Part shown: positions 28,729 through 42,961 of the stretch, one piece after another
How the letters are laid out: each line of letters opens with the position of its first letter
Numbering within the stretch: the first letter of the stretch is position 1
NCBI GenBank assembly: GCA_024711405.1
Contig: JANJSZ010000080.1
Span: 1 to 43,626 of the forward strand
Origin: Acidovorax sp.
GTDB lineage: Bacteria; Pseudomonadota; Gammaproteobacteria; Burkholderiales; Burkholderiaceae_C
DNA: 43,626 nt
Reading direction: 5' to 3'
The notes under the pieces: model-generated
The model's database searches: none
What the model was told of the DNA's origin: nothing
What the model saw: the letters and a program-made list of their open reading frames with translations, nothing else
Translations under genes and position numbers: made by a program

Positions 28729-28977
28729 ATGAATGAGCAGACCTACCTCACTACAGATGAATTGTCGTCAAGGATCAAGTATGACGTTCGGACAATCCGA
28801 GAACGTCTCAAAGACAGCGTGCTGATGGAGGGGGTGCACTATGTGCGACCGTTCGGTGGCAGAAAGATCTTGTTTGTGTGGGAGACCATTGAACGTGACA
28901 TGAAGGTCGCCTCGACCCTGTTGCCAGTTGGCATGAATGCAATCCCGATGGCCAATGGAGCAGTTCTCCATGGCTAA
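28729..28977 (+). CDS. AlpA/excisionase-like DNA-binding protein
   Basis: 82 aa. The N-terminal YLTTDELSSRIKYDVRTIRERLKD resembles the winged helix of AlpA/MerR-like excisionases, followed by EGVHYVRPFGGRKILFVWE. CAGGAGCAACC precedes the ATG. The end overlaps the integrase start by 8 bp. It probably directs integrase toward excision or activates it. Confidence 0.7.
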   Translation: MNEQTYLTTDELSSRIKYDVRTIRERLKDSVLMEGVHYVRPFGGRKILFVWETIERDMKVASTLLPVGMNAIPMANGAVLHG

Positions 28978-30427
28978 GGTCACAGTCAGAAATGAAACCG
29001 GCAAGTTGGTGATGGACTTCACCTATCGCAATGTTCGTTGCCGTGAGCAGACAGCATTGCCTGACACGCTGCAAAACCGAAAGCGGGTGGAGGTCGTTCT
29101 GGAAAAGATCAAGAAGGCGCTGAGGAATGGCACCTTCAAGTACCGCGATTACTTTCCTGAGAGCGCACTAGCATCGCGCTTCGATCCAGCGGCTGCAGTC
29201 GACGTGGGCAAGTCGATGCAGTCACCTGTCAATAGCTCTTCCCCACATTTTCAAGACTTCGCAAGACAGTGGTTTAAAGAGCACGAGATCGAATGGCGAC
29301 GCAGCCATATCCGATCCCTGCGCTCCACCTTGGACGGTCGCCTGATCCCTCACTTCGGACAAAAGGTGGTCAGCAGCATCACCAAATCCGACATCCTTGC
29401 CTACCGCGCCACACTCGCCAAAGTAAAAGGTCGCGGAGACAAGGAAGGACTCTCACCCAAACGGATCAACGAGATCATTGGCACGCTTTGCCAGATCATT
29501 GACGAAGCCGCCGACCGATTCGAGTTTACGACGCCCACGACCAACATCAAACGACTGCGTGTGCGCAAGGTCGATGTAGATCCGTTCAGCCTGCAGGATG
29601 TACAGAGCATCCTGGCGACCGTCCGTGCGGACTATCGCAACTATTTCACCGTGCGCTTTTTCACCGGCATGCGCACTGGAGAAGTCCATGGCCTCAAATG
29701 GCGCTACGTCGATTTCGAGCGTCGCCTGATTCGCGTCCGGGAAACCGTCGTCCTTGGAGAGGATGAATACACCAAGACCGACGGCAGCCAACGCGACATC
29801 CAGATGAGCCAGCCGGTAGTCGAGGCCCTCGCCAAGCAGTACGAGGTGACGGGAAAACTGTCCGACTACGTGTTCTGCAACCTGATGGGCGCGCCATTGG
29901 ATAACAAGAACTTCACAGACCGCGTCTGGTATCCATTGTTGCGCCATCTGGGCATGACTGAACGCAGGCCTTACCAGATGCGCCACACCGCTGCGACCCT
30001 GTGGCTGGCTTCCGGTGAAGCGCCCGAATGGATCGCACGCCAGCTCGGCCACACCTCTACCGAAATGCTGTTCAGGGTCTACAGCCGATACGTGCCCAAC
30101 CTCACGCGCCAGGACGGTTCGGCCATGGAGCGTCTACTGGCCAGTCGGCTTGCCACCGGCAAGGTCTTGCGCATGGACGGCGCTCACCTGCAGCAAGTGG
30201 GCGATAGCAACCTATTCGCCGAAGCAGGGGGCAGGGAGCGGGCGACCATGCCCGTGCCTAAACCCCGAGGCGTGGCGGTTGGAGCCTTAGAACGGGCCCG
30301 AACAAACTGGTCACGCACATCGCAGGACATCACCCTGCCCGAACGCCATGCGGGCGAAGACCCGCAACCCCCGCCCCCGGGCGCGATGCGTACTCACGTC
30401 AGACGGCTGAACCCGCTGCACGCCTGA
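28970..30427 (+). CDS. Tyrosine recombinase/integrase with DUF3596-like arm domain
   Basis: 485 aa. The N-terminus (MAKVTVRNETGKLVMDFTYR ... FKYRDYFPES) looks like the DUF3596 arm-binding domain, followed by a SAM-like core-binding domain (FARQWFKEHEIEWRRSHIRS). The catalytic domain shows Arg in FFTGMRTGEVHGL, RPYQMRHTAAT, GHTS and a late Tyr in FRVYSRYVPN. The first His of HxxR is Tyr here (YQMR), as I recall for this subfamily. ATG 28970 follows GGAG. It marks the region as a mobile genomic island. Confidence 0.92.
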   Translation: MAKVTVRNETGKLVMDFTYRNVRCREQTALPDTLQNRKRVEVVLEKIKKALRNGTFKYRDYFPESALASRFDPAAAVDVGKSMQSPVNSSSPHFQDFARQWFKEHEIEWRRSHIRSLRSTLDGRLIPHFGQKVVSSITKSDILAYRATLAKVKGRGDKEGLSPKRINEIIGTLCQIIDEAADRFEFTTPTTNIKRLRVRKVDVDPFSLQDVQSILATVRADYRNYFTVRFFTGMRTGEVHGLKWRYVDFERRLIRVRETVVLGEDEYTKTDGSQRDIQMSQPVVEALAKQYEVTGKLSDYVFCNLMGAPLDNKNFTDRVWYPLLRHLGMTERRPYQMRHTAATLWLASGEAPEWIARQLGHTSTEMLFRVYSRYVPNLTRQDGSAMERLLASRLATGKVLRMDGAHLQQVGDSNLFAEAGGRERATMPVPKPRGVAVGALERARTNWSRTSQDITLPERHAGEDPQPPPPGAMRTHVRRLNPLHA

Positions 30428-30566
30428 GGCCGCACTAAGCCACCGTCGACACCTCCGAACCCCGCTGGCACCAAGCAGCGGTCTGGGCGGAGCTTTGTCC
30501 GACGCAGGCCCCTCGCTGTGTCATCGCCCACCTCATTCACCTTCAGTCTTTCATCGCCAGGAAACC

Positions 30567-31196
30567 ATGAATCCCATCACTGTGCGCCGATATCCCCGAG
30601 CCCCATGTTTCGAGAGCTGTTACGTGCCACCGGCACCAGCGGCTCCACAGAATAGGTCGTTGACCTCCAGAGTTGAGCAAATTCATGGAGTCGTAAACCT
30701 GCTCGATCACCTGCCAGCCTGCGCCAACAAGAGTCTGCGCCGCTTTATCGCCGATGTGTTCGACAAGGCACTTCTTGCGGCGTACTCCATACCGGCGAGG
30801 GGCGCCTGGGCGCCCGAGTGTTGCCAATCTGCAGAACATTCCCTGCTCGACTGGAGCCTTCAGATGTCCAAACGCGCCCGACGGTATCCGGCCCTGCACG
30901 CATGGGAGCGGGATGTGGCAGTCGCAGCCGCTTTGGTCGCTCCGTGTGGACTGGCGGGCTACCTGCATGACCATCCCGACCGAGACCCTGTGCTCAGCCT
31001 GAACAGCGAGGAACGCGAAGAGATTGTCGCGCGGCGCCTTGTGATCCTCGACGACCCCTTGCGCCGCTTGCGATCACGTGATGCCGAATGCGGCAGCACG
31101 TTGGGCGCAGTGCTCGACGTCAGTGGAGACGAAGAGCTCGACCGCCAGCAAGTCGCGCGCATCACCGCCGCCATCGGCTTCATGGCAATCCTCTGA
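30567..31196 (+). CDS. Unrecognised island protein A (paralogue of protein C)
   Basis: 209 aa from ATG 30567, after CAGGAAACC. There is no confident family. The central part (NLLDHLPACANKSLRRFI ... LLAAYSIPAR, then VAVAAALVAPCGLAGYLHDH) aligns by eye with the protein at 31616-32212, so the two share a fold. The EHSLLDWSLQMSKRARRYP segment vaguely recalls the HD-like TraI_2/MobH domain of integrative elements, but the metal-binding HD pair is not clear. It is the first gene after the integrase. Confidence 0.75.
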   Translation: MNPITVRRYPRAPCFESCYVPPAPAAPQNRSLTSRVEQIHGVVNLLDHLPACANKSLRRFIADVFDKALLAAYSIPARGAWAPECCQSAEHSLLDWSLQMSKRARRYPALHAWERDVAVAAALVAPCGLAGYLHDHPDRDPVLSLNSEEREEIVARRLVILDDPLRRLRSRDAECGSTLGAVLDVSGDEELDRQQVARITAAIGFMAIL

Positions 31197-31236: not shown

Positions 31237-31623
31237 ATGAAACCCACATCCAATCCAATATCCAAGAACGCCTCTTCCGCTGGCTCCACCCCTACCCACT
31301 TTGTGCAGGAGCACAAGGGCCTGTGCATTCTGGCGTTGCCAGCAAGCTTTCGCAAAGCGGTCCCCGCAAAGCGCTGGAATGAAATCCATCGTGAACTGCA
31401 TGCCCAAGTGCTGGAACTCATTGAGCGACTGCCCGGAGCGGTTCACTTTGTCGCGATGCCCCTGTGCTTAGCCCAGATCACCGGCGACATAGACCCGGCA
31501 GAGATCGGTCAGCGGTTGACTCAAGAGGACTTCATCCTCGAGCCCCGCGGGCGGACAGGAGAAACCAGCAGCCGTGCGACCACCCGCAGGGCAGCCTCCA
31601 AGAAAGGAGCCTCCCGTGCGTAA
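31237..31623 (+). CDS. Unrecognised island protein B
   Basis: 128 aa with no family I recognise. The N-terminus is Ser/Thr-rich and probably disordered. The middle (HKGLCILALPASFRKAVPAK, then HAQVLELIERLPGAVHFVAM) is predicted alpha/beta, and the C-terminus is Arg/Lys/Ser-rich. It lies between the two paralogous genes and overlaps the start of the second by 8 bp, so the two are probably translationally coupled. Confidence 0.7.
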   Translation: MKPTSNPISKNASSAGSTPTHFVQEHKGLCILALPASFRKAVPAKRWNEIHRELHAQVLELIERLPGAVHFVAMPLCLAQITGDIDPAEIGQRLTQEDFILEPRGRTGETSSRATTRRAASKKGASRA

Positions 31624-32212
31624 TCACCGAGCCCGACAAGGAACTCAGGACATGTTCGGAGCCCCCCAGAGTCAGCGTGCTGTGCAGGTCCAGGCTGAGC
31701 AACGTGCCCAGTTGCTCGGGCAACTACCGCTGCTTTCTAACCAGGCGCTGGTGCCATTCGTCACAACGGTTTTTGCATTGGATGAACTGGTCTCCGCATA
31801 TCTCCTGCCTTTGCGTTCTGCGCCCCGAGAACTGGATGAAGGAGATCCGACTGCACTGTCGCAGTGTTTAGCGGCCATGGGGCGTGCCCGCCGTTGCAGA
31901 ACCTTGGTCCTCAAATCCAGCTGGGAGCCCGTTGCCGTGGCGCTGTTGGTCAACCCCTGTGGCTACTACCTCTGCCTGCGCGAACTCATGTTTGGACGTC
32001 ACTACGTATCGACGCCTGACATGTACCAGCGGATCAGCCATGTCAGGGCAGAGGTGCTGAGCAAGCCCCTGCAGGCACTGTGTGAAGCCGACCCCCAGGT
32101 CGGACGATATCTCGCCTGGATCTTGGGGTTTGGTTCCTACAAGGGGCTGGATGTCCGGCGAGCGGTCGATATGCAGAGGGCGGTGTATCGCGAGACGCTA
32201 TGGATGAGTTGA
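31616..32212 (+). CDS. Unrecognised island protein C (paralogue of protein A)
   Basis: 198 aa from GTG 31616, with AAAGGAG seven bases upstream; it overlaps gene B by 8 bp. QLLGQLPLLSNQALVPFVTTVF, ELVSAYLLPLR and EPVAVALLVNPCGYYLCLREL match the order of segments in protein A (LLDHLPACANKSLRRFIADVF, LLAAYSIPAR, DVAVAAALVAPCGLAGYLHD). No catalytic motif is obvious. ATG 31652 is an alternative start. Confidence 0.75.
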   Translation: MRNHRARQGTQDMFGAPQSQRAVQVQAEQRAQLLGQLPLLSNQALVPFVTTVFALDELVSAYLLPLRSAPRELDEGDPTALSQCLAAMGRARRCRTLVLKSSWEPVAVALLVNPCGYYLCLRELMFGRHYVSTPDMYQRISHVRAEVLSKPLQALCEADPQVGRYLAWILGFGSYKGLDVRRAVDMQRAVYRETLWMS

Positions 32213-32243: not shown

Positions 32244-32498
32244 ATGCACCGGATCATTCACCTGACGCTCCTGGCGTTGAGCGCCATCAACGCGTATCTC
32301 ATCTTTCGCAGGGATTGGGATCCCATGTACGCCTGGCTCTTTGTGGCGGGTGCTGCGATGGCGCTACTCCTCACGTTACTCCTGCATCTGCTCTTGAAGG
32401 TCAGGCCCGAGGAGCGCATCGCGTCCCTGCGCGAAGTGGCCAAGACGGTTAAAGCCGATCTGGCCGCCTTCCTGAAACTGCTTCGCTTCTGGCGTTGA
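32244..32498 (+). CDS. Small two-helix membrane protein
   Basis: 84 aa. Two hydrophobic segments (IIHLTLLALSAINAYLIF and AWLFVAGAAMALLLTLLLHLL) are followed by a charged cytoplasmic-looking tail with EERIASLREVAKTVKADLAAFLKLL. GAAAGGAATC lies before the ATG. FtsH proteins normally carry their own two-helix anchor, whereas the protease encoded 72 bp downstream has none. This protein could supply a membrane tether; that is an inference. Confidence 0.7.
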   Translation: MHRIIHLTLLALSAINAYLIFRRDWDPMYAWLFVAGAAMALLLTLLLHLLLKVRPEERIASLREVAKTVKADLAAFLKLLRFWR

Positions 32499-32570: not shown

Positions 32571-34526
32571 ATGAGAACAACGAACATTCAATTGCGCGCG
32601 CATATCAGCGAACGCAGCGCTCAGTTACGACACATCGCCGCAGAGCTCAAGACCGAGCTCTTTGGGATTGATGACATCATTGATCGCGTGATCGACACGA
32701 TACGGGCGTGGTACGTCCTGCCCGAGATCATCAACCGGCCGGTCATCGTGAACCTATGGGGGCTCACCGGTACGGGCAAGACCCAACTCATTCGCAGCCT
32801 GTCCAAGAAGCTTGGGTTCTATGACCGCCTGATCGAAGTCCAGATGGACGGCTACTCCAACGGAGGAGGGGTGTCGATCGGCTCCATGTTGTCGGACTCC
32901 GCGATCGCCGAGGGCACTCCCGGAATCCTCGTTCTCGATGAGTTCCAGCGGTTCAGGACCATTGACCGCGATGGGCGCGAGCGCAAGGTCGAGCACTACA
33001 TGGACGTGTGGGGCTTGCTTTCCGACGGGAAATTGCCTCCCAACATTAGCTTCCTTGGGGATATGGAGCGCAGGTTGGCCGAGGCTGCATATCGTGACGA
33101 ACACAAGCGGGTGGGCGTGAAGTCGGATGCTGACGAGGAGGATGTGGTCGTTGGTCTGTTCGCGCGAACGCCCCGCAATGATCGTTCGAAGTTCACTCTG
33201 CCGCCGTATCAGGCCCAGGAATTTAAAGCGACGTTGAAGCTCAAGGAGTCCATCATGGAGATCATGACCTGGTCTCCGCAGGATCTCCACAGTCGCTTGG
33301 TTGCCTTCATGCAAAACCCCCATGCGTGGGAGACGGATTACTCGAAACTGCTGATTTTTGTCTGTGGCAATCTCGATGAGATGTATGCAGATGCCGCCAG
33401 TCGTGTGGAAGACTGCGACACAGATGCTGATGTGTTCCATGCCATGACCCGCAAGCTTTCGCTCATTGATGTGAAGCGGGCGTTGAGTGAGCGCTTCAAG
33501 CCCGAGCAAATTGCCCGGCTTGGCAACAACCACGTCGTCTATCCCAGTCTGAACCGCTCGACCTACCAAAAGCTCATCGAGGTCGCCGTGCGCGGCTACC
33601 TTGAGGAAATCGAAGCATCCAGTGGACTGCGCTTTGAAGTGACCGATGCGGTCAGGGAGCAGATCTACGCCAATTCCGTGTTTCCCACCCAGGGCACCCG
33701 TCCAGTGTTTTCTTCGGTGCATGGTCTGATGAGTGCACCTCTGGTGGACTTCACGCTCTGGGCACTGGAGCAAGGGGCCAGGCCAGGCCAGGTGCTGACC
33801 ATTGATGTGGACCCGGATGCCGGGCTTCTGGTCTTGCGATGGGGAGAGCGGATGCACACCGTGCCCGTAGCGTTTGAGATCAGCAGACTTCGCCAGCGAT
33901 CCGACCCAGACATGCGGGCAGTTCTGGCTGTGCACGAAGCGGGGCATGGATTGATCTACGCCTTGCTGTTCAAGCAGGCACCGCTGGAGATTCGCATCAA
34001 CATGGCGACCTTCTCTGGGGGCTACAACAGCTTCAATGAACTCAAGGTCAAAACCCGCGGCAATCTGCTCGACGCGGTGTGTGTTGCGCTCTCAGGTCGC
34101 GCTGCCGAAGAGATGGTGTTTGGCAAGGAGTCCCTGAGCTCGGGCAGCGAGAGCGATCTCAAGCTGGCCACACAGCAAATGGCAGCCTTCATTCGGCACG
34201 CCGCGTTCGGCGAGCGCATCAGTCATGTGGATGTCAGCACGGAGGCAGGGGAGAACATCAACACGGATGTGGCCAGTACCAATGCGGAAATTGAAACAGG
34301 GCTGCAGAAGCAGTACAAACGTGCGCAGGGATTGCTCGCAGAAAACCAAGTTATCTATCTTCGGATGGTCAATGAGCTCGTCAACAAGGGTCAGCTGGCG
34401 CCACAGAAGATCCGGGATTGGCTGGGCCTGTCGGAGTCGAAGGTGCCCAAGGATGCGCTGGAGCCATTTGATGCAAAGTTGAGAGAGTTCGAACGACGCC
34501 ATTCCCAACGGCTCACGAGTGTCTAG
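32571..34526 (+). CDS. Clp-type AAA+ ATPase fused to FtsH-like (M41) zinc metalloprotease
   Basis: 651 aa. Residues ~25-400 are a Clp/ClpX-like AAA+ module: LFGIDDIIDRVIDTI, Walker A GLTGTGKT (64-71), Walker B GILVLDEF (118-125), a sensor-1-like FVCGNLDEM (263-271), and sensor-2-like GTRP (375-378) after a small domain resembling the ClpB/ClpA C-terminal D2 region. Residues ~440-645 are M41-like: HEAGH at 455-459, GRAAEEMVFG at 509-518, and Asp529 in GSESDLKLAT, the expected third zinc ligand. There is no N-terminal membrane anchor and no FtsH-type AAA domain (SRH). It is probably an ATP-driven protease with a Clp-style unfoldase. Confidence 0.85.
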   Translation: MRTTNIQLRAHISERSAQLRHIAAELKTELFGIDDIIDRVIDTIRAWYVLPEIINRPVIVNLWGLTGTGKTQLIRSLSKKLGFYDRLIEVQMDGYSNGGGVSIGSMLSDSAIAEGTPGILVLDEFQRFRTIDRDGRERKVEHYMDVWGLLSDGKLPPNISFLGDMERRLAEAAYRDEHKRVGVKSDADEEDVVVGLFARTPRNDRSKFTLPPYQAQEFKATLKLKESIMEIMTWSPQDLHSRLVAFMQNPHAWETDYSKLLIFVCGNLDEMYADAASRVEDCDTDADVFHAMTRKLSLIDVKRALSERFKPEQIARLGNNHVVYPSLNRSTYQKLIEVAVRGYLEEIEASSGLRFEVTDAVREQIYANSVFPTQGTRPVFSSVHGLMSAPLVDFTLWALEQGARPGQVLTIDVDPDAGLLVLRWGERMHTVPVAFEISRLRQRSDPDMRAVLAVHEAGHGLIYALLFKQAPLEIRINMATFSGGYNSFNELKVKTRGNLLDAVCVALSGRAAEEMVFGKESLSSGSESDLKLATQQMAAFIRHAAFGERISHVDVSTEAGENINTDVASTNAEIETGLQKQYKRAQGLLAENQVIYLRMVNELVNKGQLAPQKIRDWLGLSESKVPKDALEPFDAKLREFERRHSQRLTSV

Positions 34527-34696
34527 GGAATCCGGGGCGATTCATCCAATTTGAAGCACTGCGCCCTCAAGACAGTTGACCGAGCGCAGGGACCTGTATC
34601 CATCTGTGATCGTGACGGTAAGATGGGACGAGTGATTTCTATGCGTCCAACCCGCTCTTTTGAGCCGGGTTGTGCGGCCAAATTCTCTCAGTCTCC

Positions 34697-36247
34697 ATGC
34701 TCGACGACATCAAAAAAACCCTCTGGGCCACCGCCGACAAGCTGCGCGCCAACATAGACGCAGCCGAATACAAGCACCTGGTGCTCGGCCTCATCTTCGT
34801 CAAGTACATCTCTGACACCTTCGCGGCCCGCCGCGCCGAGCTGACGGCCCGCCTCACCAACCCCGACGACGAATACTTCTACGGCGATGCCGACCCGGCC
34901 GACATCGAAGCCGAGCTGGAAGACCGCGACTACTACAAAGAGGTCAACGTCTTCTGGGTGCCCGAAGGTGCACGCTGGGAGCAGCTCCGCAATGCCGCCA
35001 AACAGCCCGACATTGGCAAGCGCATCGACGACGCCCTGACGCACATCGAAGTCGAGAACCCCAAGCTCAAAGGCATTCTCGACAAGCGCTACGCCCGCGC
35101 GCAGTTGCCTGATGGCAAGCTGGGCGAACTGGTTGATCTGGTATCCACCATCGGCTTTGGTGAAGACCCCGCCATTGCCCGCGACGTGCTGGGCCAGGTG
35201 TACGAATACTTTCTGGGCATGTTCGCCAGTGCCGAGGGCAAGCGCGGCGGGCAGTTCTACACCCCCGCCAGCATCGTCAAAACCCTGGTGGCCATCCTCA
35301 GCCCCCATGAAGGCAAGGTGTACGACCCGTGCTGCGGCTCGGGCGGCATGTTTGTGCAGTCTGAGAAATTCATCGAAGCCCACGGCGGCAAGCTGGGCGA
35401 TGTGAGCATCTACGGCCAAGAGGCCAACCCCACCACCTGGCGCCTGGCCGCCATGAACCTGGCCATCCGGGGCATTGACTACAACCTGGGCCGCGAGCCT
35501 GCCGACACCTTCACCCGCAACCAGCACCCCGACCTGCGGGCCGACTACATCCTGGCCAACCCGCCGTTCAACATATCCGACTGGTGGCACGGCAGCCTGG
35601 AAGGCGACCCCCGCTGGGAATATGGCGACCCACCCCACGGCAACGCCAACTACGCCTGGTTGCAGCACATGCTGCACCACCTGAGGCCCACGGGCCGCGC
35701 AGGCATCGTGCTGGCCAACGGCAGCATGAGCAGCAGCCAGAACAACGAAGGCGTGATCCGCGCCGCCATGGTGGATGCCGACGTGGTCGAAGTCATGGTG
35801 GCCTTGCCCGGCCAGTTGTTCTTCAACACCCAAATCCCCGCCTGCCTGTGGTTTTTGGCCAAGCAGAAAACGCGCAAGGGCGAAGTGCTGTTCATCGATG
35901 CCCGCAAGCTGGGCTGCATGATCAGCCGCGTGCAGGCCGAGTTGACCGATGACACCATCGCCCGCATCGAAGCCGTGGTGGCCGCCTGGCGCGGCGAGTC
36001 GGGCGCATGCAGTTATGAGGATGTGAAAGGCTTTTGCCGCAGCGTGCCGCTGGCCGAAATCGCCCAGCACGGCCATGTGCTCACCCCCGGGCGCTATGTG
36101 GGCGCGGAAGAGGTGGAAGACGACGACGAGGCCTTTGCCGACAAGATGCAGAAGCTCACCGAAAAGCTGGGTGAGCAAATGGCCAAGGGCGCGGAGCTGG
36201 ACGCGGTGATTCGGGCGAAGCTGGGGGGGCTGGGGTATGAGTTCTGA
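34697..36247 (+). CDS. hsdM: Type I restriction-modification methyltransferase subunit
   Basis: 516 aa from ATG 34697. The N-terminal helical HsdM domain ([20 protein letters not shown], then [12 protein letters not shown]) is followed by [20 protein letters not shown]. Next come the AdoMet motif [14 protein letters not shown] and the catalytic NPPF of adenine-N6 methyltransferases. It forms M2S with HsdS to methylate the recognition site. A weak ribosome-binding site precedes it. Its end overlaps hsdS by 11 bp. It is much richer in GC than the TRD parts of hsdS. Confidence 0.95.
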
Positions 36248-37604
36248 TGTGGCGCAGTTCTCTTCGGTACCAGAGGGGTGGGATGTCGAGGAGCTTAGAG
36301 GCTTCCTTGAACTCATTACCTATGGATTTACCAATCCAATGCCCGATGCAGACGTTGGGCCGTGGAAACTCACCGCTAAGGACATCGTTGGGGGGCGGAT
36401 CAACTACTCAACTGCTCGAAAAACCACCCACGAAGCTTTTGAGCATTCGTTGACAGACAAGAGCCGACCACGCGTTGGAGATGTATTACTAACAAAGGAT
36501 GGCTCCATTGGGCGTGTCGCTGTCGTAGACAGGCCTGGCGTATGTATCAATCAATCCGTTGCTCTGCTTCGTCCGAATGACCGCATTTCTTCGGAGTACT
36601 TGAAATACCTGCTTCTGTCTCCGTACTATCAGTCAGTGATGGAGGGCGACTCTGACGGGTCGACAATCAAGCACATCTACATTACGCGTGTAGACAAGAT
36701 GCGAGTGGCGGTGCCACCTCCCGCAGAACAGCTATCGATTGTTGGACTTGTTGGAAAGATCGACGACCGCATCACCCTGCTCCGCGAAACCAACGCCACC
36801 CTCGAATCCATCGCCCAGGCCTTGTTCAAGTCCTGGTTCGTCGATTTCGACCCCGTGCGCGCCAAGATGGAAGGCCGCACGCCCGAAGGCATGGACGAAG
36901 CCACCGCAGCGCTCTTTCCCGATGGGTTTGAAACGTCGGAGTTAGGGGAGGTGCCGAGGGGGTGGGCACTCAAACCATTTGGCGCGCTTTTGGCGCACAG
37001 CATTGGTGGCGATTGGGGATCTGAGCAGCCGGAAGAGAAGAACACAGTGCGCGTTGCCATCATCAGGGGCACCGACATTCCCGACTTGCAAAGCGGGCGG
37101 GATAACCGAGTGCCGATCCGGTACACCAGCGAGAAAAAGCTATCAACTCGCCAGCTTCAAGATGGCGACATCGTGATTGAGGTATCGGGCGGCAGTAAGG
37201 ATCAGCCGACGGGTAGAGCGCTCTATGTGACGTACGACCTACTCAAGCGATTCGATTGCCCTGTGGAGCCAGCAAGCTTTTGCCGTCTTTTCCGGCCCGT
37301 TGATAGAGCAACCGGGGTGCTGCTTGGCCAGCATCTTCGATTCGTCTACGACCAAGGCAAGACGTGGGAGTACCAAAATCAAAGCACCGGTATCGCCAAT
37401 TTCCAGACGACGCACTTTCTTGAGAAAGAGCTTGTAGCTGTTCCCTCCGATTCCGTGCTCAACGTCTTCTCTGAGACAGTCCGGGCGTTGGTGGATCGCG
37501 CGATCACGAGCCAGCTCGACGAGCTGAGCCAAATCCGCGACACCCTGCTCCCGCGCCTCATTTCTGGGCAGTTGCAATTACCGGAGGTCGCCGATGCACA
37601 TTGA
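36237..37604 (+). CDS. hsdS: Type I restriction-modification specificity subunit
   Basis: 455 aa with two target-recognition domains. The first ends at [21 protein letters not shown] and the second at a C-terminal repeat ([19 protein letters not shown]). Each TRD is followed by a coiled-coil spacer; the central one includes [31 protein letters not shown]. The central spacer is GC-rich, while the TRDs have a more relaxed codon use, as expected for exchangeable TRDs. It determines the bipartite DNA target, which cannot be predicted from sequence here. Confidence 0.95.
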
Positions 37605-38373
37605 CGCATCTGTTCTAAGCGGCTTGCCGCACGAACAACATGACCGCTTTGTTCGGAATGCCAATGAAATCGTCATTGAGTCGTTCATCTTCACAGGCGA
37701 CAGGGACTACCTAACGGCACGCTTTGCCTTTTTTCAAAAGCAATCGCATTTGTTTCTCTGGTCTGCTGCACAGGCACTGGAAAAGTACATCAAAGCGAAC
37801 ATCTTGCTTTTGGGCTCTGGTGCAATCAAACGAATCCACAAGCACACCGAACTCGCGAAAACGCTGAGGGAAACTCACGCTGAGCGATTGCAAATTGACA
37901 CGGCCATGCCAGATGGCTGGGCAGATCAAGGAGTGGCACTGTGGCCCACCGTAGACGCTGATGGATTTTTACAGCGCGTAGAAGCGCAGGGCTCCCCCGA
38001 TGTGCGTTACGACCAAGTGCAGCTTGAAGTGCATTTGCAAGACCTTGTGCTGCTCGATCGCATGGCTTTTCGTTTACGCCACCTGTTGGTTGCTGAACCT
38101 GTGGAGAGTTGCCGCTTGGTCGGAGAACAGTTGACGCAGTGCTTTTTTGATCTGAACTATTCGTTTGCGCCAGAAGGGTTTGAACACCCGCCATTGACGG
38201 GACTCCGGTTGTGTCACGCCTCGGTGAGCAAGTTGGAAGCTGCTGTCAGAGGCTGCTACGGACATGCGAACTTGTACCAACAGTGGGCCTGTAAAAGCAT
38301 GGATATGAAGTCGAAGGACATGGAGAGGCTGAAGAAACCTGCCAAGGAATGGGAGGGGCTGCCCAATGACTGA
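37594..38373 (+). CDS. Accessory protein with HEPN-like N-terminal helices
   Basis: 259 aa. ARFAFFQKQSHLFLWSAAQALEKYIKANILLLG followed by HKHTELAKTL resembles HEPN domains (small helical domains, often RNases or their relatives). The usual RxxxxH catalytic motif is not clearly present, so it may be a non-catalytic or divergent HEPN. GGAGG precedes the ATG, and it overlaps hsdS by 11 bp. It is not a standard RM subunit; the position suggests a partner or alternative effector of the system. Function unknown. Confidence 0.6.
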   Translation: MHIDASVLSGLPHEQHDRFVRNANEIVIESFIFTGDRDYLTARFAFFQKQSHLFLWSAAQALEKYIKANILLLGSGAIKRIHKHTELAKTLRETHAERLQIDTAMPDGWADQGVALWPTVDADGFLQRVEAQGSPDVRYDQVQLEVHLQDLVLLDRMAFRLRHLLVAEPVESCRLVGEQLTQCFFDLNYSFAPEGFEHPPLTGLRLCHASVSKLEAAVRGCYGHANLYQQWACKSMDMKSKDMERLKKPAKEWEGLPND

Positions 38374-39097
38374 AAGCCCAACGAAATTGGTCAACGTCCA
38401 AGAGCGCATTCACATCTACTGCGACGAATCGTGCCATCTGGAAAACGATCACATGCATGCGATGGTGCTGGGCGCGGTGTGGTGCCCGGCTTCGCACAGA
38501 CAGTCGCTGGCAGACAAGATCAAACGCTTGAAAGCAGACTACGGCTTGCCTGTTCAGTTTGAAATCAAATGGGTAAAGGTCTCGCCCGGCAAACTGCCTT
38601 TCTACCAAGCATTGCTGGATTTGTTTTTCGACGAGCCCTTGCTGCACTTCCGAGGGTTGGTGGTGCCAGACAAGGCGGCCTTGGACCATGGCCGTTTTGC
38701 CCAAAACCACGACGATTTCTATTACAAGCAGTGGTACACGCTGCTCAACCGGCTGATCAACCCCAGCAACCAGTACCGCATTTTTCTGGACATTAAGGAC
38801 ACACGCGGTCAGGCGAAGGTGCGCAAGCTGCACGATGTGCTGTGCAATGCCAACTATGACTTCGACCGCAGCGTGATCGAGTCCATCGAACTGGTGCATT
38901 CGCATGATGTACTGCTGCTGCAACTGGCAGACTTGCTGATTGGCGCGCTGGCCTATGTGTACCGGGGCTTGCACGGCAGCCCAGCCAAGCTGGCGCTGGT
39001 GGCGCATTTGCGGCATCGGTCGGGTTTACGGCTGGAACAAAGCTCGTTGCTGCGGGCAGACAAGTTCAATTTGTTCGTTTGGAGGCCGCAGTCTTGA
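38366..39097 (+). CDS. DUF3800 domain protein (RNase H-like fold)
   Basis: 243 aa. The DUF3800 pattern is visible: acidic DES at residues 20-22 in HIYCDESCH, an internal FLDIKDTRGQAK, and the late LLLQLADLLIGALAYVYRG. These carboxylates could form a metal-dependent nuclease site; DUF3800 is often placed in the RNase H-like superfamily, but its biochemistry is poorly known. It overlaps the preceding gene by 8 bp and recurs in defence loci. Confidence 0.8.
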   Translation: MTESPTKLVNVQERIHIYCDESCHLENDHMHAMVLGAVWCPASHRQSLADKIKRLKADYGLPVQFEIKWVKVSPGKLPFYQALLDLFFDEPLLHFRGLVVPDKAALDHGRFAQNHDDFYYKQWYTLLNRLINPSNQYRIFLDIKDTRGQAKVRKLHDVLCNANYDFDRSVIESIELVHSHDVLLLQLADLLIGALAYVYRGLHGSPAKLALVAHLRHRSGLRLEQSSLLRADKFNLFVWRPQS

Positions 39098-39099
39098 CC

Positions 39100-39600
39100 A
39101 TGCCGCCACCTTTGATGCTGTTCAGCGGATACAGCGACTGGGCCGACTATGAGGATGCCATTTATGCGGTTTATCTACAAACCGTCGCTCACGCCGGGCT
39201 CACGTTCTTGGGCTCCTCTGTCAAGGTGCGCTTCATCCCCACCACCAAGCACAAGGGTTATGGGTTTTGGCACCTGATTTCTGAGGCACCTGAACAAGAC
39301 AACCGGAATGAAGACGACCGCATACCCGACCTGCGCCGGTGCGAGCGAGTGCGCTGGGTGGCCTGGTGCATCCAGAACGCCGGAACCCCAGGTTTCTCTT
39401 GGTGGGAAAACGACCGTAAAGGCCAGACCCATGTGGTCATTTGGGCCGAGGAGCATGACTATGCGGTGATGCTGGGCAAGCGGAACACGGCTGAAGGCGT
39501 CCGCTTCTACTTGCTCAAAACGGCTTACTGCTTGCGGTCACACAACGTGCGCCGCTTTGCCAAGGAACGTGATGCGTATTGGGCAAGCCAAAAAGACTGA
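39100..39600 (+). CDS. Accessory protein, possible RNase-toxin (barnase/ColicinE5-like) fold
   Basis: 166 aa. The C-terminal strand pattern THVVIWAEEHDYAVMLGKR ... VRFYLLKTAYCL followed by basic RRFAKERDAYW is reminiscent of phage-type barnase/EndoU/ColicinE5-D nucleases, including the KTAY element. The conserved-looking KHKGYGFWHLISE and RCERVRWVAWCIQNA precede it. GGAGG (39081-39085) fits a TTG start at 39094 as well as ATG 39100. The family assignment is tentative; no catalytic set is proven. Confidence 0.55.
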   Translation: MPPPLMLFSGYSDWADYEDAIYAVYLQTVAHAGLTFLGSSVKVRFIPTTKHKGYGFWHLISEAPEQDNRNEDDRIPDLRRCERVRWVAWCIQNAGTPGFSWWENDRKGQTHVVIWAEEHDYAVMLGKRNTAEGVRFYLLKTAYCLRSHNVRRFAKERDAYWASQKD

Positions 39601-39709
39601 AGCCCCGGCACACGAATGTGCAAGGGCTTCGGATACTCCTTCTGCGCGTGGCAGATGAGCTGCGAGCATTGTAGCGTAGTCCAAGACTTTGGGAAGAAGC
39701 GGGAGAAAG

Positions 39710-42700
39710 ATGACAGAAGACCAACTCGAACGCGACACCCTGGCCTGGCTGCAGGACGTGGGTTACACCCACCGCCGCGGGCCGGACATTGCCTTTGATG
39801 GCGCCACGCCCGAGCGCACCGACTACCGCCAGGTGCTGCTGGTGCAGCGCCTGCGCGAGGCCATGGCCCGGCTGAACCCCGGCGTTCCGGCCGCTGCCCG
39901 CGAGGATGCGCTCAAGCAGGTGCTGGATTTGGGCACTCCCTCGCTGCTGCAAGCCAACCGCGCTTTTCACAAGCTGCTGGTGGGCGGGGTGCCAGTGCAG
40001 TACCAGCGGGACGGCGAAACCATCGGCGACTTTGTGCGGCTGGTGGACTGGGCGCAGCCCGGGCACAACGAGTGGTGGGCGGTCAACCAGTTCACCATCA
40101 AGGGGCCGCACAAGACGCGGCGGCCCGACATCATCCTGTTCGTCAATGGCCTGCCGCTGGTGCTGCTGGAGCTGAAAAACCCGGCCGACGAAAACGCCAG
40201 CATCTGGAAGGCGCTGGACCAGATCGAGACGTACAAGGAGCAGATTGCCGAGGTGTTCCAGTACAACGAGGTGCTGGTGATTTCGGACGGCACCGAGGCG
40301 CTGATGGGTTCGCTCTCGGCCGATGCCGAGCGCTTTATGGCCTGGCGCACGATTGACGGTGTGGCGGTGGACCCGCTGGGGCCGTTTCAGGAGCTGCAGA
40401 CGCTGGTGCGCGGCGTGCTGGCGCCTGCCTACCTGTTGGACTACCTGCGCTACTTTGTGCTGTTCGAGGACGACGGCCAGCTCGTCAAGAAGATTGCGGG
40501 CTACCACCAGTTCCATGCGGTGCGCGCAGCCATTGGCGAGGTGGTGGCAGCGTCGCGCCCCGGCGGCACGCGCAAGGGTGGCGTGGTGTGGCACACACAG
40601 GGCAGCGGCAAGAGCATCACCATGACCTGCTTTGCCGCCCGCGTGATGCAGGAACCCGCCATGGAGAACCCGACCATCGTGGTCATTACCGACCGCAACG
40701 ACCTGGACGGGCAATTGTTTGGCGTGTTCAGCCTGGCGCAAGACCTGTTGCGCGAGCAGCCGGTGCAGGCGCTGACGCGGCCCGACCTGCGCGCCAAGCT
40801 GGCCCACCGGCCCTCGGGCGGCATCATTTTTGCCACCATCCAGAAGTTCATGCCGGGGGAGGACGAAGACAGCTTTCCGGTGCTGTCCGACCGCAGCAAC
40901 ATCGTGGTGATCGCCGACGAGGCGCATCGCACGCAATACGGCTTCAAGGCCACGCTCAAGACGCGCAAGCGGAATTTTGAGCAAAATATGCCTGCGTCGC
41001 TTGATGGGCAAGCGCAAGAAGCTACTAAAAGCATAGCTGCCAGCGATGCAGGCAGCAGTGCCCTGCCGGCCCATTTTGAGCCGCCGCCGTACCACCTGGG
41101 GGTGGATGCCAACCTGCAAGCCACCTGGCAGGCGGGCTATGCCCAGCACCTGCGCGATGCGCTGCCCAACGCCACCTTTGTGGGCTTTACCGGCACGCCG
41201 GTGAGCAGCGCGGACCACAACACCCGCGCGGTGTTTGGCGACTACATCCATGTGTACGACATGCAGCAGGCCAAGGAAGATGGGGCCACGGTGGCGATCT
41301 ACTACGAGTCGCGCCTGGCCAAGCTGCGCCTGAAGCAAGAGGATTTGCCCGCCATCGACGACGAGGTGGACGAGCTGGCCGAGGACGAGGAAGAAAGCAC
41401 CCAGGCCCGGTTGAAAAGCCGCTGGGCCGCCCTGGAAAAGATCGTGGGCGCCGAGCCCCGTGTGGCCAGCGTGGCCGCCGACCTGGTGGAGCACTTTGAA
41501 GAACGCAGCACTACCCAGACCGGCAAGGCCATGGTGGTGGCCATGAGCCGCGAGATTTGCGTGCACCTGTACAACGAGATCACCAAGCTGCGCCCCGACT
41601 GGCACGACCCCGACCCCGAGAAAGGCGCCATCAAGATCGTGATGACTGGCTCGGCCAGCGACAAGGCCCTGCTGCGCCCGCACATCTACGACGGCAAGGT
41701 CAAAAAGCGCCTGGAAAAGCGCTTCAAAGACCCGGCCGACCCGCTGCGCCTGGTCATCGTGCGCGACATGTGGCTGACGGGTTTTGATGCCCCCTGCGTA
41801 CACACCCTGTACGTGGACAAGCCCATGAAGGGCCACAACCTCATGCAGGCCATTGCCCGCGTGAACCGCGTTTTCAAGGGCAAGCAAGGCGGCCTGGTGG
41901 TGGACTACATCGGCATCGGTAACGAGCTGAAGGCCGCCATGAAGGAGTACACCGCCAGCAAGGGCAGGGGCACGCCCACCGTGGATGCGCGCGAGGCGTA
42001 CAGCGTCCTCATGGAAAAGCTCGATGTCCTGCAATCCATGCTGCACGGTTGCGACACCAGCGACTTCCTCACCGGGGGCCACCAAACCCTGGCAAGGGCC
42101 GCCAACCACATCCTGGGCCTGCGTGAAGAAGGCGGCAAGGATGGCAAACGCCGCTTTGCAGACACCACCCTGGCACTGACCCAAGCCTTCTCGCTGTGCT
42201 GCACGCTGGACGAGGCCAAGGCTGTGCGTGAAGAAGTTGCCTTCATGCAGGCTGTGAAGGTCATCCTGACCAAACGGGACATCACCGCCAAGAAGCGCAC
42301 CGACGAACAGCGCGACGAAGCCATCCGGCAGATCATCAGCAACGCCGTGGTGTCCGATCAGGTGGTGGACATCTTCGACGCCGTGGGTTTGGACAAACCC
42401 AACATCGGTCTCCTGGACGACGAATTCCTGGCGCAAGTCAAGAACCTGCCCGAGAAGAACCTGGCGGTGGAACTGCTCGAACGGCTGCTCGAAGGCGAAA
42501 TCAAAAGCCGCTTTGGCAGCAACGTGGTGCAAGAGAAAAAGTTCTCCGACCTGCTGGGCAACGTGATCAAGCGCTACCAGAACCGCTCTATTGAAACCGC
42601 GCAGGTGATGGAAGAGCTGGTGGACATGGCCAAGAAGTTCCGCGAGGCCGCCAGCAGGGGCGAGCAACTGGGCCTGACCGAAGACGAAGTGCGCTTTTAC

Positions 42701-42961
42701 GACGCCCTGGCCACCAACGAATCAGCCGTTCGAGAGCTCACCGACGAAACCCTCAAGAAGATTGCCCATGAGCTGACCGAGAACCTGCGCCAGAACCTGA
42801 CGGTGGATTGGTCAGAACGTGAGAGCGTCAGGGCCAAGCTGCGACTGATGGTCAAGCGGGTCTTGCGCAAGTACAAGTACCCGCCAGACTTGCAGGAAGA
42901 GGCGGTGGACTTGGTGCTGCGGCAAGCGCAGGTGTTTGGAGACAACTGGGGCAGCACCTAG
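39710..42961 (+). CDS. hsdR: Type I restriction endonuclease subunit R
   Basis: 1083 aa from ATG 39710 (GGGAGAAAG upstream). The N-terminal nuclease domain carries [18 protein letters not shown] (PD-(D/E)xK type). The motor has Walker [10 protein letters not shown]-like [16 protein letters not shown] in [11 protein letters not shown], motif III GFTGTPV and motif [22 protein letters not shown]. The C-terminus is helical and assembles with M2S. Between [10 protein letters not shown] and [10 protein letters not shown] about 60 residues occur where I recall roughly 15-20; this extra stretch contains a palindromic repeat translated in frame (40990-41053). Confidence 0.95.
40990..41053 (+). repeat. 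Palindromic interspersed repeat embedded in hsdR
   Basis: The outer arms are GCCTGCGTCGC (40990-41000) and GCGATGCAGGC (41043-41053), with one mismatch. An inner CGCTTG-ATGGG-CAAGCG stem and AGCTA/TAGCT arms are nested inside. It resembles a short mobile repeat common between genes of Comamonadaceae, recalled from memory. Here it is read through as protein. Confidence 0.7.

Follow-up and report, generated by a model that had tools for sequence, protein, structure and literature searches.

A 651-amino-acid open reading frame with an ATG start (positions 32571-34526, + strand) on a 43,626-nucleotide contig of Acidovorax sp., hereafter the window, meaning the whole stretch of DNA analyzed, joins a Clp/Hsp100-type AAA+ module to a zinc peptidase of family M41. 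Judged from its sequence, the protein is likely to be a soluble, self-contained AAA+ protease, a hexamer that would use ATP to unfold proteins and pass them to a chamber made up of its M41 domains. In the accessible text of PMC7226402, FtsH and Lon are the AAA+ proteases with motor and protease in one subunit, and FtsH is placed in the classic AAA clade and domain 2 of ClpA/B/C in the HCLR clade. The fusion family crosses this clade line, with an HCLR-clade motor wired to an FtsH peptidase. The family could thus be used to ask whether the type of motor or the type of peptidase sets the choice of substrate, and a soluble M41 enzyme should be easier to study than membrane-bound FtsH. No model in Pfam, NCBIfam, PHROGs, or PADLOC represents the whole architecture, and no description of a Clp-motor/M41 fusion was found in open-licence literature, in keeping with the unusual AAA+ protease envisaged by the first-pass annotation.

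Domain architecture and origin of the motor

The two halves of the protein point to different families because their Pfam, NCBIfam, and PDB matches divide between FtsH for the peptidase and Clp for the motor. Peptidase_M41 (PF01434) was the sole Pfam match above cut-off (60.5 bits compared to 29.9) and spans residues 447-614 (33909-34412). The NCBIfam model FtsH_fam covers only residues 446-612 (55.2 bits against an equivalog cut-off of 600); the best stretch for ClpA is residues 6-97 (40.6 bits against 993) and that for ClpB residues 300-414 (38.6 bits against 1232). A single-sequence PDB search agreed with this division, and profile comparisons split the halves in the same way (253 columns to domain 2 of ClpB, 169 columns to the M41 domain of FtsH), bearing out the initial proposal of a Clp-type unfoldase joined to an FtsH-like peptidase. 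The fusion carries one AAA+ module, of the ClpA/B/C domain 2 type by profile and PDB matches (residues 12-400; 32604-33770), compared to two in class I Hsp100/Clp proteins.

The motor was examined with an alignment of 25 AAA modules of the family, searched against PDB sequences at E ≤ 0.01. This returned 50 matches, led by ClpE, ClpB, and ClpC and followed by Hsp104, ClpA, Msp1, Lon, and AFG2, with no chain named FtsH among them. With hhalign, using comparison profiles built from 16/19 ClpB loci, 22 FtsH, and 20 ClpX loci, the motor aligned to domain 2 of ClpB over 253 columns (probability 97.6, E = 3.2e-12), to domain 1 of ClpB over 93 columns (E = 7.9e-5), to the AAA domain of FtsH over 64 columns around Walker A-B (E = 1.1e-6), and to ClpX over 48 columns (E = 4e-7). 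By these alignments the motor is closest to domain 2 of ClpA/B/C, and ClpX was rejected as its closest kin on 48 columns compared to 253; of the Clp/ClpX-like motor originally proposed, the Clp part held and the ClpX part did not.

The alignment to ClpB domain 2 pairs the Walker A motif GLTGTGKT (residues 64-71; 32760-32783) with GPTGVGKT, LLSDGKL with VLDDGRL, RFKPEQIARLG, the motif of the probable arginine finger Arg316 (33516-33518), with HFRPEFINRID, and the sensor 2 motif GTRP (residues 375-378; 33693-33704) with GARP. GLTGTGKT and GTRP had been read as Clp-type motifs at the outset, and these pairings agree. The fusion thus shares with domain 2 of ClpB, ClpA, and ClpC (Hsp100; HCLR clade) a long AAA alignment, the box VII arginine, a GxRP sensor 2, and an LLxxLxDGxL-like motif; it differs from them in carrying its zinc protease in cis, whereas ClpA/B/C, with their two AAA modules, work with ClpP as a separate protein or have no protease.

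An alternative hypothesis is that the protein is an ordinary FtsH with a diverged AAA domain. Its order of motor and then peptidase in one chain is that of FtsH, as is the C-terminal M41 domain with HExxH and a distal Asp, and the FtsH AAA domain does align around Walker A-B, as AAA domains do. However, hhalign contradicts this hypothesis by placing most of the length of the motor with ClpB domain 2, and the FtsH alignment stops short of the part expected to hold the second region of homology (SRH). Likewise, FtsH was absent from all 50 PDB matches of the motor, the FtsH_fam score comes from the M41 part, and there is no membrane anchor, making a diverged FtsH extremely improbable. The separate profile check of the two halves that had been suggested therefore places the motor outside the FtsH AAA family.

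One long gap opens in ClpB domain 2 opposite fusion residues ~158-252, just before sensor 1 (Asn267; 33369-33371). It corresponds to an insertion of ~95 residues (33042-33326) between LLSDGKLPP and the sensor-1 strand, which spans 78-174 aa across the 42 aligned proteins measured. Pore-facing loops of Clp proteins lie near this position, and the insertion could probably aid substrate selection or gating. Tyr95 was considered as the pore-loop aromatic and rejected: the position is aromatic (Tyr or Phe) in rows of the window's family, whereas two rows of a second bacterial family (f115) have Ile or Val there, and viral rows do not keep it. No counterpart of the pore-loop aromatic of known unfoldases was assigned.

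Conserved active sites and a predicted soluble protease

The peptidase half is FtsH-like. An M41 alignment gave 21 PDB matches, all FtsH-type chains (bacterial FtsH, YME1, AFG3L2, and plastid relatives; best E = 1e-24), and hhalign against FtsH M41 extended over 169 columns (E = 1.4e-24). The zinc motif HEAGH spans residues 455-459 (33933-33947), and the candidate third zinc ligand, Asp529 (34155-34157), aligns with the Asp that follows TTGAEN in Thermus FtsH. Retention of HEAGH and of Asp529 had been claimed from the window copy; both were found across the family. Walker A (G64, G69, K70, T71), Walker B (GILVLDE, residues 118-124, 32922-32942; D123, E124), sensor 1, the arginine finger, sensor 2, HExxH, and Asp529 are invariant in 57/57 bacterial copies, these rows being full-length copies with fragments excluded and some of them close kin. 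His455, Glu456, His459, and Asp529 are constant in the full-length copies examined, and the middle of HExxH varies (HEAGH, HESGH, and, in viral proteins, also HEASH or HEAAH).

The fusion gene is under purifying selection. Whole-gene dN/dS was 0.035-0.16 in nine pairs, with saturation of synonymous sites in the pair that gave the lowest value. By part, where defined in the nine pairs, values were 0.05-0.12 for the motor and 0.03-0.14 for M41, and the insertion was less constrained in some pairs (up to 0.41). These values bear on a second alternative, in which the fusion would be a chaperone or assembly factor with a working motor and an M41 domain left as a structural relic, like that of the FtsHi pseudo-proteases. 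There is a precedent in plastid complexes: their FTSHI chains, M41 relatives described by name as probably inactive, were, with Ctap/Fhl chains, among the weaker PDB matches. However, HExxH and Asp529 persist in every one of the bacterial copies and of 41 viral proteins, and dN/dS in M41 is much like that in the motor, so that a relic peptidase is very unlikely.

No membrane-like segment was found in the fusion, whose best 19-residue Kyte-Doolittle mean is 1.17 compared to 2.33 (at two places) in one real FtsH; the absence of a membrane anchor noted at first pass is thus upheld. The anchorless fusion, with its Clp domain 2-like motor and long insertion, contrasts with FtsH, which is held by membrane helices and whose AAA domain is of the classic clade with an SRH. 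Lon, like the fusion, has an HCLR-clade motor and a protease in the same chain. The Lon protease is an S16 domain, and S16 is absent among the 13 Pfam matches listed for the fusion up to E = 10.

From what is established about AAA+ proteases, a domain 2-type motor that retains its Walker, sensor, and arginine-finger residues beside an intact M41 site should act as an ATP-driven unfolding protease. We propose that six fusion subunits form a ring in which the Clp domain 2-type motor would grip a substrate protein and unfold it with ATP. The unfolded substrate would then be threaded through the ring into the M41 chamber of the fusion itself, to be cut into peptides at the HEAGH/Asp529 zinc site. 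Its choice of substrates would most likely depend on two features, the soluble nature of the protein and the insertion before sensor 1.

An integrase cassette carries the window copy

In the window, the fusion gene is the last of a cassette whose members all lie on the + strand. It begins with an 82-aa protein that is possibly excisionase-like by position and has no PHROGs or Pfam match (28729-28977), followed by a tyrosine integrase (28937-30427; Pfam Arm-DNA-bind_2 and Phage_integrase), proteins of 233 aa (30495-31196), 128 aa (31237-31623), and 212 aa (31574-32212), the first and last of which are paralogues, and, immediately preceding the protease, a predicted membrane protein of 84 aa (32244-32498; hydropathy 2.42). 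The 233-, 128-, and 212-aa proteins are kept in cassette copies and have no Pfam, NCBIfam, PHROGs, or PADLOC match at the thresholds used. Five distinct copies of the cassette (window, L001, L002, L003, L005) are complete, integrase included, and a remnant occurs in L046. The DNA that follows it varies: a type I restriction-modification system lies there in the window, L005, and L047, identified in the window by Pfam and PADLOC as hsdM, hsdS, a HEPN-like gene, and hsdR (34670-42961, +). The HEPN-like gene (37594-38373), between hsdS and hsdR, is under the Pfam cut-off. The last residues of the window copy's C terminus are given by an IS-end-like segment (34484-34544, +), an inverted copy of which is found in L001; 57-bp matches to it lie under transposase annotations of IS3 (two records) and IS30 (one record). 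This form of the C terminus is common to the window copy and L005 and is not found in L001-L003.

A tree built by a quick method groups the five cassette copies in a single clade (SH-aLRT 99), apart from the core clade of Acidovorax and with the long branch L105 joining near. From this separate position, the window cassette copy appears to be a xenologue. Both a core-type and a cassette-type copy are present in two genomes (G024, G591).

Membership of a conserved integrase cassette raises the possibility that the fusion is a dedicated regulatory protease of a mobile element, for example, one removing a repressor or the integrase, and not an enzyme of general quality control. We consider this rather unlikely, though less so than the other alternatives, given that many copies are chromosomal at fixed places: core-type copies lie between hrpA and argA at 17/17 loci examined (16 of the same genus and one of another, out of 29 found), and 6/13 f115 loci have the gene flanked by hisF and hisE. 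The cassette also invites the suggestion that the fusion acts as a membrane protease, tethered in trans by the 84-aa protein, which has one strong hydrophobic stretch and whose gene precedes the protease in all five distinct complete cassette copies. The 84-aa protein has sub-cut-off matches to SLATT (E = 0.0045, far under) and Anthrone_oxy (E = 3.6e-5). However, no scanned locus apart from the cassette copies and the L046 remnant has this gene; elsewhere in bacteria the fusion is preceded by a small basic protein or by neither of the two, and viral loci have no widely shared neighbor. Tethering is therefore an improbable explanation, and a soluble protease remains the preferred reading.

Distribution in bacteria and a small neighboring protein

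The fusion gene was found in 34/99 relatives (E ≤ 1e-10), 33 of them among 47 same-genus genomes, counts that include the window's own copy and two fragments. Named loci at 71-94% identity belong to Acidovorax species and to other beta-proteobacterial or Burkholderiales metagenome-assembled genomes. Among genomes spread over the window's family, which we take to be Burkholderiaceae in GTDB, 42/399 have the fusion, in 25/141 genera; two of the 42 carry it in two frames and one as a fragment. The split genes (G596 and G748; loci L118 and L119) represent either decay or sequence error. Homologues of the same architecture at this frequency, together with whole-gene dN/dS well below 1, exclude a chance or assembly join. 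In wider samples the fusion is rare, at 3/369 genomes spread over the class, window included, and 2/398 over the phylum, namely, the window's own and one of its family. The two further class matches belong to the single second family, f115, in which 13/63 genomes and 4/8 genera have a fusion at 32-33% identity to the window copy. Two queries against plasmid records found no place covering 80% of the query.

The window genome also encodes separate FtsH, ClpX, and ClpB; the fusion would therefore be an additional protease. Whether homologues keep the same neighbors had been raised as a check, and the answer is divided: neighbors are common to cassette copies and are not shared across the whole fusion family. 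Outside the genus, the hrpA-argA setting is often lost, with both markers at 6/35 loci (L085-L120 without L087).

Upstream of the fusion in 44/65 loci scanned, duplicates included, is a small basic protein of ~81 aa (e.g., L036:10378-10620, -), which matches no Pfam, NCBIfam, or PADLOC model and precedes the fusion at all 17 of the core-type hrpA-argA loci. Across the 399 family genomes, the protease occurs in 42, the small protein in 41, and both in 35, counts that ignore shared ancestry; in two of these 35 the small protein is on a different contig from the protease. Seven of the 42 protease genomes lack it, as does the window cassette. Conversely, six of the 399 genomes have the small protein without the protease. 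In four of these it lies between hrpA and argA (L127, L129-L131), in L128 it adjoins argA and a 47-residue protease stub, and in L126 neither hrpA nor argA is beside it. These separate occurrences rule out an obligate partner, and the small protein is therefore a neighbor and not a proven partner. The split and fragment copies, with the six genomes that have the small gene alone, indicate that the fusion is dispensable in some hosts.

Relatives on virus-classed contigs and in phages

When the window protein was the only query, IMG/VR gave no matches. A second scan, with an alignment that included f115 copies and two patterns around Walker A, gave 53 loci with relatives, representing 44 distinct proteins. 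Of these, 41 had sufficient length for alignment, and all keep Asp123, Glu124, Asn267, Arg316, Arg377, His455, Glu456, His459, and Asp529. Walker A was present in 37-38 of the aligned rows and, once full frames were read, in the remaining four too (41/41). The other three proteins, being truncated or not fusions, lack the intact architecture: L258 has HEAAH in a frame without Walker A, and HExxH is missing both from L266, which has the motor, and from the Clp-like protein L270.

A T4-type portal matched in 13/41 virus-classed records tested and in 0/14 control genomes, whereas a terminase matched in 12/41 by a search that also matches 6/14 controls. All 12 terminase records also have the portal, and neither was found in 28/41. 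The 12 include the record of the non-fusion L270, and two of them (L247, L249) encode one and the same protein. Six records with both hallmarks are 297-385 kb long and are therefore huge-phage genomes and not bacterial DNA. For records without hallmark genes, viral nature follows the IMG/VR classing alone. One short contig (L237; 0.56 G+C) encodes a copy with 69% identity to that of the window and may be bacterial.

The viral fusions have varied surroundings. In 43 viral loci, after 10/53 duplicates were dropped, no other protein cluster was common to more than three loci within ~5 kb. Six of ten viral neighbor proteins matched PHROGs (RNA ligase/tail-fiber attachment, radical SAM, MazG-like, exonuclease, transposase, and RtcB), and four matched nothing. 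On one virus-classed contig, a second Clp-type frame with GPTGVGKT and GARP begins ~3 kb downstream of the fusion (L268:9914 onward).

In a joint bacterial and viral tree, built by a quick method with long branches and a midpoint root, rows of the window's family and L237 fall inside a set of virus rows (support 99), and f115 forms its own clade (100). This topology would suit at least two exchanges between phages and bacteria, in either direction. We tentatively suggest that this class of AAA+ protease perhaps diversified mainly in huge phages and entered bacteria at least twice, once into the window's family and once into another family of that class, to become a chromosomal gene; in phages it could serve to remodel proteins of the host or the virion independently of host proteases. 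In uncultured huge phages, the fusion is a candidate enzyme for host takeover or virion processing.

In PHROGs, the viral fusions match phrog_4871, called ATP-dependent protease, by the motor and phrog_30773 by the peptidase, and the latter matches the FtsH of phage MIJ3 over its length. Like the fusion-bearing phage contigs, the Pseudomonas jumbo phages MIJ3, PA5oct, and Paride carry an M41 protease. However, the MIJ3 protein (described in the accessible text of PMC6892783) is FtsH over its full length (TIGR01241 at residues 15-570, E = 4.9e-165), unlike the fusion, and jumbo-phage FtsH of this type was rejected as the same protein; PA5oct, Paride, and other related phages gave matches of the same kind, known here as matches alone. 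Among 50,697 records of isolated phages, no place covered 80% of the window, L220, or L267 queries; matches were in 5, 12, and 0 records, respectively, and were placed in the M41 part.

In the literature, the accessible text of a jumbo-phage overview mentions ClpP, ClpS, ClpA, and ClpX and neither FtsH nor M41 (PMC7824862). Term searches of the accessible text found no occurrence of FtsH or Clp in PMC13282480 and PMC7162821 and none of ClpB or fusion in a review of FtsH evolution (PMC9020784). A moraphage core gene is named "ClpA" (VOG02072), known here by that name only from the accessible text of PMC12619734.

A soluble AAA-M41 protein from Rhizobium (UIK01562.1, L032) is, like the fusion, an M41 protein without a membrane-like stretch by hydropathy, but its AAA domain looks FtsH/CDC48-like by eye, unlike that of the fusion. 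This plasmid-borne gene (L032:4690-6675) has an N-terminal part that does not look like FtsH, and it lies near metallohydrolase and serine protease genes.
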